DNA from: Natrialba aegyptia DSM 13077
GTDB lineage: Archaea; Halobacteriota; Halobacteria; Halobacteriales; Natrialbaceae
Reading direction: 5' to 3'
Assembly (NCBI RefSeq): GCF_000337535.1
Contig: NZ_AOIP01000015.1
Location: 275,112-339,111 of the forward strand
DNA: 64,000 nt
In this document: piece by piece, positions 2,139-54,740 of the stretch
How positions within the stretch are numbered: position 1 is the stretch's first letter
How the letters are laid out: each line of letters begins with the position of its first letter
Program-made: the position numbers and the translations under genes
The notes under the pieces: generated by a model
Database searches by the model: none
Told to the model about the DNA's origin: nothing
The model's input: only the letters and a program-made list of their open reading frames with translations

Positions 2139-2147
2139 GTTATATTA
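2139..2147 (+). promoter_or_regulatory. TATA box of structured RNA copy 1
   Basis: GTTATATTA lies centred about 28 nt before 2171, where the first helix of the RNA candidate begins. This is the spacing expected for an archaeal TATA box and transcription start. The matching element before the second copy supports the call. Confidence 0.6.
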
Positions 2148-2170
2148 CTCTCCTTGCGAAACTGTCAGAA

Positions 2171-2315
2171 TGGAAGTCACCTCCAAACGAATACGCGGGG
2201 GCATGCGTACGAAATGCCCCGGGTGCTACAACACCCGAGACGTGGCTTCCACTGCGGCTCGCAATGGTTGCCATGTTTCCATTACTGCTACCGAGACAAA
2301 AAGCTCTCGCACGAC
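2171..2315 (+). ncRNA. Candidate structured RNA, copy 1
   Basis: No known family is recognised. The RNA would begin at 2171 with one arm of a 10-bp closing helix (TGGAAGTCAC 2171-2180 pairing with GTGGCTTCCA 2242-2251, one G-U pair). Inside it are hairpin P2 (GGGGCAT 2198-2204 with ATGCCCC 2214-2220) and hairpin P3 (GGGTG 2221-2225 with CACCC 2232-2236), then the linker GAGAC (2237-2241). After the closing helix come GCCATGTTT (2270-2278) and hairpin P4 (CGAGA 2292-2296 with TCTCG 2305-2309), followed by CACGAC. The same plan occurs at 54496-54617 on the other strand with changed but still pairing bases. An ATG at 2170 opens a reading frame through the region, but the second copy has no equivalent ATG, so translation is unlikely. 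The 3' end is set at the last shared bases. An IS200/IS605 end or omega-RNA-like remnant is the main alternative. Confidence 0.6.
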
Positions 2316-2418
2316 GGACAGGGATAGCTATCGCTCACGACCAGCGCACGGAGCCGTCTGGCTCCACGTACGGACCTGCACCGGATTGTATCCTCGCTCC
2401 CCAGCGGAGGCGGCGTCG

Positions 2419-2676
2419 ATGACCGCAGAGTTCGACGGCCCGGCCGACGGGTCGATATCCTGCGATTCGCACACCCAGGATCCGACCGACCTCGACGCAC
2501 AGAACGAGACGGTCTGCTACCGCTGTGACCGCCCCATCGACGCCGACCGCTGGATCCGCCTCACCGCGCGTCCGGGACCCGGCGTGACAGGCACTTACGA
2601 AGCCACCAGCCGGCCCTGCTGTCCCGACTGCGCGGCGGCCCTCGGACTGCTCGAGTTCACCGTCGATCCACGGTGA
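2419..2676 (+). CDS. Small CxxC zinc-binding protein
   Basis: An 85-residue protein with an acidic N-terminus followed by CYRC (about residues 35-38) and, 30 residues on, a second cluster (CCPDC), the layout of a zinc ribbon or finger. It ends in a short hydrophobic tail (AAALGLLEF). The ATG at 2419 is chosen because the longer frame upstream runs through the structured RNA candidate and lacks haloarchaeal codon character. The gene starts about 100 nt after that RNA, and the gene after RNA copy 2 also encodes a small protein with a CxRCxxPI motif. The function is unknown. Confidence 0.62.
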   Translation: MTAEFDGPADGSISCDSHTQDPTDLDAQNETVCYRCDRPIDADRWIRLTARPGPGVTGTYEATSRPCCPDCAAALGLLEFTVDPR

Positions 2677-53703: not shown

Positions 53704-53912
53704 TTAGAAGCTAAGGAATTCCGGACACCACTTCTTAGCGAAGCTGATGCGTTGAGTTATTTGATCGAACGTGTCTTTAACGAGTTCCTTGAACTCGTCT
53801 TCATTCTCGACTATGCTCGGTGCCATCGTCCACTCTAGGTAGTCCCAGACTTTCCCAATTGGATTGAGATGAGGTGAGCTTGGTGGGAGAAAAACTAGGT
53901 CGATCCTGAGTT
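53704..53912 (-). pseudogene. IS630-family transposase, C-terminal remnant
   Basis: Reading on the minus strand, about 68 codons match the end of an IS630 DDE transposase: IDLVFLPPSSPHLNPIGKVW holds the PPxSPxLNPI region just before the last catalytic Glu, followed by DYLEWTMAPSIVENEDEFKE and KKWCPEFLSF, then TAA. The N-terminal and central parts are missing, and the upstream sequence changes character. It is dead. Confidence 0.78.
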
Positions 53913-54098: not shown

Positions 54099-54293
54099 TC
54101 AGTCGTCGGAGTCCGATTGTGAGCGCGTGCCGACGCGGGGGGCGACGCGACAGCCGCAGGGACCGGCGATGGCTTCGCCCGGCCCGATCATGGTCCGCTG
54201 GACGATGGGCGTGTTACAGCGGGGACAGCGCGGAAACGGGGTTTCTGAACCGTCCGTCGTGTCGCCGGGGTCCGCATTGTCGGGATCCGTCAT
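54099..54293 (-). CDS. Small cysteine-motif protein downstream of RNA copy 2
   Basis: From the ATG at 54293 the protein has 64 residues (MTDPDNADPGDTTDGSETPF). The core PRCPRCNTPIVQRTMIGPGE and then AGPCGC holds one CxxC pair and a CxC pair, a zinc-ribbon-like layout, and the Ser/Asp-rich tail is typical of haloarchaea. A GTG at 54434 would add a low-complexity Thr/Asp/Gly head of 47 residues. The first structured block, CPRCNTPI, recalls CYRCDRPI in the protein after RNA copy 1. The upstream RNA ends about 60-200 nt before the start, depending on the start chosen. Confidence 0.65.
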   Translation of the reverse strand: MTDPDNADPGDTTDGSETPFPRCPRCNTPIVQRTMIGPGEAIAGPCGCRVAPRVGTRSQSDSDD

Positions 54294-54495
54294 GGACACC
54301 TCCGACCCGAGGGATTCCGCGTCGTCCGTCTCGCCGGTATCAGTGCTAGCCGTGCTCGTCTCGTCCGTTCCGCCGGTGCCGTCGCTAGTCGCGTTGCGTG
54401 CGGCGTCACCGTCGTCGGTCACGCAGTCGAACACCTCGGCGCATTCCCGAGACCACCTGTAAGAGCCGCTGCTCGCTTGGGATACCGATCCGTCA

Positions 54496-54617
54496 GTCGT
54501 GCGGGATGTTTATATCCCGTGAGAATGTACGCAATCATGGCTTTGACCCTTGCGGGGTGGAAGCCACGTCTCGGATGCTCTAACATCCGGGACACTTTCA
54601 TGTCCGATGTGGCTTCC
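54496..54617 (-). ncRNA. Candidate structured RNA, copy 2
   Basis: This is the counterpart of the RNA at 2171-2315. The closing helix is GGAAGCCAC (54617-54609 on the minus strand) with GTGGCTTCC (54567-54559), 9 bp. Inside are P2 (GGACA/TGTCC, 54605-54590) and P3 (GGATG/CATCC, 54588-54573), then GAGAC (54572-54568). GCCATGATT follows about 17 nt after the helix, and P4 (CGGGAT/ATCCCG, 54519-54502) runs into CACGAC. P3 differs from copy 1 by an A-T to G-C exchange, P1 by a C-G to U-G exchange, and P2 and P4 have other bases that still pair. Such changes argue for selection on RNA shape. No protein frame is shared by both copies across this segment. Confidence 0.6.
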
Positions 54618-54642
54618 GTCCTAATTGTTAACTGGTAGTGAC

Positions 54643-54650
54643 TTATATCT
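54643..54650 (-). promoter_or_regulatory. TATA box of structured RNA copy 2
   Basis: AGATATAA on the minus strand is centred about 30 nt before the first helix of the RNA (54617). The spacing equals that in copy 1. Confidence 0.6.
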
Positions 54651-54740
54651 ACCGCTGAACGACGGGAAGGAGCGCCTGCTACTGGCCCCGTGGGACCCGG
54701 ACCACAGAACTCGACCGTCTGAACTGAACTCGGTGCTCGC

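Follow-up and report, generated by a model that had tools for sequence, protein, structure and literature searches.

A multicopy structured RNA leader precedes a short ORF and a small Cys-knuckle gene in Natrialbaceae

Two loci in a 64,000-nucleotide stretch of the Natrialba aegyptia DSM 13077 genome (contig NZ_AOIP01000015.1; hereafter the window) carry the same structured RNA just ahead of a small gene for a protein with cysteine knuckles. This raises the question of whether RNA and gene belong together and, if so, what the RNA does. An earlier note on this DNA had proposed that they form a functional unit, either a cis-acting leader controlling a metal-binding protein or an RNA plus its protein partner. 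The arrangement itself is as described: both RNAs are matched by one covariance model, each lies directly 5′ of a co-stranded Cys-knuckle gene, and the motifs CYRCDRPI and CPRCNTPI read as quoted. Absent from that description were an ORF lying between the RNA and the Cys-knuckle gene and ~17 further copies in the same genome. Together these elements make up a three-part unit that is multicopy in Natrialbaceae, in which a TATA-like box is followed by a three-way-junction RNA, an ORF of ~40 codons (ORF1) and a two-knuckle Cys ORF (ORF2) (Table 1). For the gene of copy 2 the frame given earlier is right, but its start, put at 54293 or at a GTG at 54434, moves to the GTG at 54422, adjoining the ORF1 stop.

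Table 1. Features of the two units in the window (positions are those of the window).
Feature	Position	Strand	Basis or remark
Copy 2 TATA-like box (TATAAG)	54642..54647	-	30 nt upstream of P1
Copy 2 structured RNA leader	54522..54631	-	R1 cmsearch, 115.5 bits
Copy 2 P1	54609-54617 with 54559-54567	-	
Copy 2 P2	54590-54605	-	
Copy 2 P3	54572-54589	-	
Copy 2 P4, inner hairpin	54546-54558	-	
Copy 2 P5 hairpin, dyad within ORF1, CGGGATATAAACATCCCG	54502..54519	-	
Copy 2 ORF1, 39 codons, MIAYILTGYKHPARL...	54419..54538	-	stop overlaps ORF2 start (GTGA)
Copy 2 ORF2, 107 aa, class A, acidic linker, CPRCNTPI...PCGC	54099..54422	-	
Copy 1 TATA-like box	2141..2146	+	sequence and position relative to other units
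Copy 1 structured RNA leader	2158..2289	+	R1 cmsearch, 57.6 bits, E 3.1e-12
Copy 1 P1	2172-2180 with 2242-2250	+	
Copy 1 P2	about 2199-2219	+	
Copy 1 P3	2220-2237	+	
Copy 1 P5 hairpin, dyad within ORF1, CGAGA...TCTCG	2292..2309	+	sequence
Copy 1 ORF1, 49 codons, MFPLLLPRQKALARR...	2273..2422	+	stop overlaps ORF2 start (ATGA)
Copy 1 ORF2, class B, CYRCDRPI...CCPDCAAALGLLEF	2419..2676	+	

A blastn search of the 4.6 Mb genome with copy 2 returned 19 places, 17 of which are real copies; the remaining two (L018 and L019) are chance matches. One more copy, degenerate, is visible next to a tnpB. When aligned, the copies share a 5′ flank with the TATA-like box, the RNA, a conserved ATG-led stretch and the downstream gene, and their homology begins ~100 nt before the anchor and fades ~600 nt past it. 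We built a covariance model, R1, from 16 aligned copies of this genome with copy 1 left out, and copy 1 was nevertheless recovered at the score listed. R1 finds 19 matches in the genome at E <= 0.01. Across the family it matches 77/125 genomes with up to 28 matches in each, while class A of ORF2 (see below) is matched in 87/125 genomes, up to 27 times per genome. In a class-wide sample of 292 genomes R1 matched 49, of which a single one (G271) lies outside Natrialbaceae, and the named genera with matches are Natrialba, Halopiger and Natrarchaeobius. A near copy of the copy 1 ORF2 is present in another genus (L186, CYRCDRPLEDERWIRLDARPGSGVADAYERVSRACCPDC), and a plasmid search placed ORF2 relatives on haloarchaeal plasmids (12 records, including large Natrialbaceae plasmids). 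Most class A units of N. aegyptia also carry a conserved, palindrome-rich stretch (CGAGTTCA...TGAACTCG...GTCGCGGCGGCCAGCCGAGTTG) 3′ of ORF2, for example at window positions 54098-53940 on the minus strand. Downstream of copy 2 lies a short fragment (MAPSIVENEDEFKELVKDTFDQ..., 53704-53826, minus strand) that may be a transposase remnant.

The structure of the RNA was assessed on 82 R1 matches from 83 loci; two loci gave two matches each, and the weakest three loci of one genome (L172-L174) fell below the R1 threshold and were dropped. The three-way junction is paired in 98.0% of cells, with 98 compensatory cells on 11 pairs, and its covariation score was reached by 0/500 shuffles. Sliding the partner lowered pairing to 19-46%. 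G-U cells outnumber A-C cells by 85 to 12, which fixes the RNA strand. A WATAWD box stands exactly 30 nt upstream of P1 in 66/81 units, and anywhere between -52 and -25 in 71/81. The junction and the P1 strands are strongly conserved in sequence as well, and the arms of P5 switch jointly to CGAGAC...GTCTCG in class B units, as judged by eye rather than by formal count. No Rfam family matched the whole window at gathering thresholds, and permissive Rfam scans of copy 2 and four other loci gave nothing credible within the leader. The RNA has what is expected of a riboswitch in one respect, being conserved and covarying in the 5′ leader of a gene. Near one unit elsewhere, Rfam detected an sR-tMet C/D box RNA (L102:1293-1365, minus strand, 77.6 bits).

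The ATG that opens ORF1 is part of the RNA's 3′ end. Our script found this ORF in 16/17 copies of N. aegyptia, and L004 (= L029) has it too. It mostly begins with M-[IF]-A-Y-I-L-[PT]-G-Y-K-[RH]-P-A-R, the counterpart in class B units being M....PRQKGLAR, and the P5 dyad dominates its middle. Of the 69 units in which both parts are present, 62 carry an ORF2 ATG in frame and within 10 nt of the ORF1 stop, as against 16% at random positions. Moreover, the base preceding the junction TGA is A in 41/55 cases vs 59/322 elsewhere, in a test that counted ATG alone as start together with that base. ATGA and TGATG overlaps have been linked to termination-reinitiation in archaea (PMC6728339). Codon statistics of ORF1 gave no strong sign of selection at the protein level, the signal being weak and masked by the RNA. 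Across the P5 region it is the ORF1 frame that has the fewest synonymous changes (6.5%), which is what a constraint on the RNA would produce. Since its stop abuts or overlaps the ORF2 start and codon selection is weak, ORF1 most plausibly serves as a leader ORF through which ribosomes reach ORF2.

The earlier note had called for the genes downstream of RNA homologues in other genomes to be tabulated. We did this within 700 nt, using two specific Cys-protein patterns on the 82 units from many genomes, and the result upholds a conserved unit: a two-knuckle Cys protein follows in 73/82 units, whereas the same patterns occur at 7/2,755 control positions. With any two-knuckle ORF of at least 45 residues the figures are 73/82 and 62/2,755. 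Many of the 82 units are the best match of their genome, and three genomes were therefore tallied whole. A Cys protein followed 24/27 units in G085 and 23/27 by script in G032, where L156 makes a 24th by eye and L160 is frameshifted; in G040 it followed 12/20, three units lacked it and the remaining five fell outside the tally. In the reverse direction, R1 lies immediately 5′ of ORF2 and co-stranded with it at 21/30 loci of the ORF2 family. The remaining nine show no such leader by pattern and may represent a leaderless branch.

The downstream proteins fall into two classes, with 50 units followed by class A (CPxCG...PCGC), 23 by class B (CxRC...CxxC) and nine by none recognised. Copy 2 has the former and copy 1 the latter. 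A profile comparison of the classes aligned 13 columns at 10% probability and gave no homology past the first knuckle. The idea of one similar protein at both loci is accordingly abandoned, and the caution that the likeness was short and could be chance was justified; the argument from protein similarity fails, although the unit is real. Two cysteines and CGC are invariant in 43 class A cores, four cysteines in 23 class B cores. Like C(P)XCG-type proteins, the ORF2 products are small and have a pair of C(P)XC-type knuckles, and they are probably zinc-binding. The class A core is predicted to form a three-stranded beta fold (pLDDT 83) and the class B core a small beta fold with one helix (pLDDT 84). 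Fold searches with these models listed mainly ribosomal zinc-type proteins, none significant (best E 0.78 and 0.20). Pfam/NCBIfam listed no match at curated cut-off for four proteins, nor for member 1 of A5 and of A6, the other members of A5 and A6 being covered by their best E-values only.

Several units depart from this plan. Two in N. aegyptia (L030:6015-6900 and L031:6792-7900) keep the leader and ORF1 ahead of an ORF2 that lacks Cys knuckles and has a related C-terminal stretch (DGLHEALRNAERDLREIDEQL...) in their place. L157 carries a fusion of ORF1 with a class A core, after which a second, coupled ORF of class A follows, and in L079 ORF1 continues into a remnant of the PCGC end. The neighbours of the units in N. 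aegyptia, inspected by eye, are varied metabolic-looking genes with no common partner. Those of 3/18 units (L029, L033 and L034) include what we take to be siroheme-decarboxylase or heme-type radical SAM-like genes. A presumed dnaK-like gene, again by eye, lies beside the L028 units and also adjoins units in N. hulunbeirensis and Natrialba sp. SSL1.

What, then, does the RNA do? We favour, with a probability of about 0.55, the reading that each copy acts in cis as a leader, perhaps a bistable one, and controls an mRNA whose ORFs are translationally coupled. The promoter-like box 30 nt upstream of the RNA would start one mRNA per copy. Its 5′ leader would fold so that P1 closes P2 and P3 into the three-way junction, with the P4 hairpin and the ORF1 start codon behind it. 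ORF1 would be translated, and the ribosome terminating on it would start anew at the ORF2 start codon that overlaps its stop. The P1 3′ strand (GUGGCUUCC) could pair with the 5′ strand GGAAGCCAC, forming P1 and leaving the ORF1 start free; alternatively it could pair with the GAAGCC-AUG round that start, giving an extended P4 that masks it. The leader would then most likely switch translation in response to a signal that all copies share, and many small zinc-protein genes would come under its joint control.

The masking hairpin is real in its inner part, where the arms are co-adapted: the mean energy is -14.6 kcal/mol, compared to -10.7 kcal/mol after exchange of right halves among units (z -16), a mean cost of 3.9 kcal/mol. 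The switch as a whole is suggested by pairing potential and energies. Forced into the P1 or the P4 fold, 47/76 leaders have energies no more than 3 kcal/mol apart, with a mean difference of 2.1 kcal/mol favouring P1; these energies carry no shuffled control. The P1 3′ strand is able to pair into the 3′ hairpin in 73/73 distinct segments. However, under arm swapping 71.4 of 73 still can, so that this universality is no proof of use. The outer alternative helix is paired in 79.8% of cells with a single compensatory cell, values which shuffles equalled (207/500 and 169/500), whereas sliding its partner left only 24-59% of cells paired. L113, in which all three strands have changed together, is the exception to the absence of covariation here. 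Also against the favoured reading are the 9/30 ORF2-family loci without leader, the 9/82 units without a recognised ORF2 and the codons of ORF1, which are unlike those of a protein under strong selection. As to what would set the switch, the same leader stands before two unrelated ORF2 classes in one genome, which makes a common signal more likely than separate feedback by each ORF2 product. We regard it as possible, although on balance doubtful, that the units represent a riboswitch-like haloarchaeal class, in which one sensor RNA in up to ~28 copies per genome controls a leader peptide and a zinc protein in each. If so, a single intracellular signal would set a whole regulon of small proteins of two unrelated classes.

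The same RNA might instead be processed out of an mRNA that is merely its precursor and act in trans, for instance in an RNP together with the product of ORF1 or of ORF2. We consider this rather unlikely. It would suit an RNA whose conservation is far above that of the ORF2 linkers, a basic ORF1 product (mean net charge +5.5, positive in 77/79) and ORF2 models whose resemblance to ribosomal zinc proteins is not significant. However, the ORF2 class varies while the RNA stays, and conserved pairing extends right up to the start codon. Moreover, of the two options in the earlier note the cis-acting leader fits better, because the RNA, the ORF1 start and the ORF2 start keep a fixed geometry across units. 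Nor do we think it likely that a cis-acting leader of this kind senses nothing, serving as a constitutive 5′ UTR for stability or non-leaderless initiation in a lineage-specific gene family expansion. The lack of evidence for a ligand and of covariation in the outer helix is in keeping with this, as is the grouping of leaders by genus (21/24 rows in the largest pure Natrialba clade), but the conservation of the junction and P1 strands exceeds what stability needs and the alternative folds are near-balanced.

A non-autonomous mobile element (a MITE, a PATE or an omega-RNA remnant of IS200/IS605) is improbable. Copies are dispersed, their homology stops abruptly on both sides, two units flank a tnpB at L028:7319-9252 (minus strand), one of them degenerate and without an ORF1 start, and haloarchaeal PATEs with near-terminal palindromes are described (PMC3119063). 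An IS200/IS605 (tnpB) RNA or a PATE was indeed the initial reading, and was rejected because the flanks are coding and coupled and the RNA is present at only 1/6 tnpB loci of the genome; the RNA does not behave as a tnpA/tnpB end. The dyads were likewise discarded as transposon terminal hairpins, the 5′ dyad being conserved in its TATA core alone and the 3′ dyad lying inside ORF1. Promoter, coding and coupling features all argue against a mobile element, and a phage search gave no match. Furthermore, both flanks of 9/18 own copies match one N. asiatica or N. taiwanensis locus, among 35 loci that were chosen for their ORF2 and in which absence of a unit is therefore not detectable. Finally, multicopy small genes, an RNA with a protein and coupled translation might evoke a small toxin-antitoxin-like (addiction) module whose antidote is the RNA or ORF1. 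This is very improbable given no family match, a single RNA per unit without tandem repeats and zinc-knuckle cores without a known toxic fold.

A cis-acting leader resembles riboswitches and orphan candidates in its 5′ position, its conserved multi-helix junction, an alternative pairing that could mask a start codon and the many genes per genome that it precedes. It differs in that no ligand is known here and in what would be controlled, namely an unannotated zinc-type protein together with the leader ORF to which it is coupled. Very few natural archaeal riboswitches have been shown experimentally, and PMC8241225 gives the Thermococcus fluoride riboswitch as the only one determined as of 2021. 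The archaeal motifs named in the part of PMC2864571 that bears on this are flpD (Euryarchaeota) and crcB only. The C(P)XCG zinc micro-proteins of Haloferax volcanii are likewise very small with two CxxC-type knuckles (PMC11241148), whereas here a genome can contain up to ~27 ORF2 matches of one family, which mostly share an RNA leader and have a coupled ORF1, and the tabled ORF2 proteins reach no curated Pfam/NCBIfam cut-off. In the brz-brb operon of Halobacterium salinarum a small zinc-finger protein is co-transcribed with a small basic protein (PMC3184054, PMC2253796); the abstract of PMC3184054 mentions no RNA leader of this kind, and the comparison is by description, not sequence. Haloarchaeal PATEs and IS200/IS605 elements are also short, dispersed and palindrome-bearing, and differ from these units, in which a covarying RNA is combined with a promoter-like box and a coupled pair of ORFs.

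Among open PMC papers we found no description of such an RNA or family. This structured, probably cis-regulatory leader looks undescribed, and it stands out for its number of copies, the coupled leader ORF and the lineage in which it occurs. Translational control through 5′ leaders is poorly understood where a Shine-Dalgarno sequence is not strictly required. A covarying leader with an option to mask a start codon, widespread and in many copies per genome, is therefore easily tested. Moreover, the unit offers a way into a large, unannotated family of small proteins with Cys knuckles and suggests joint regulation of its members.
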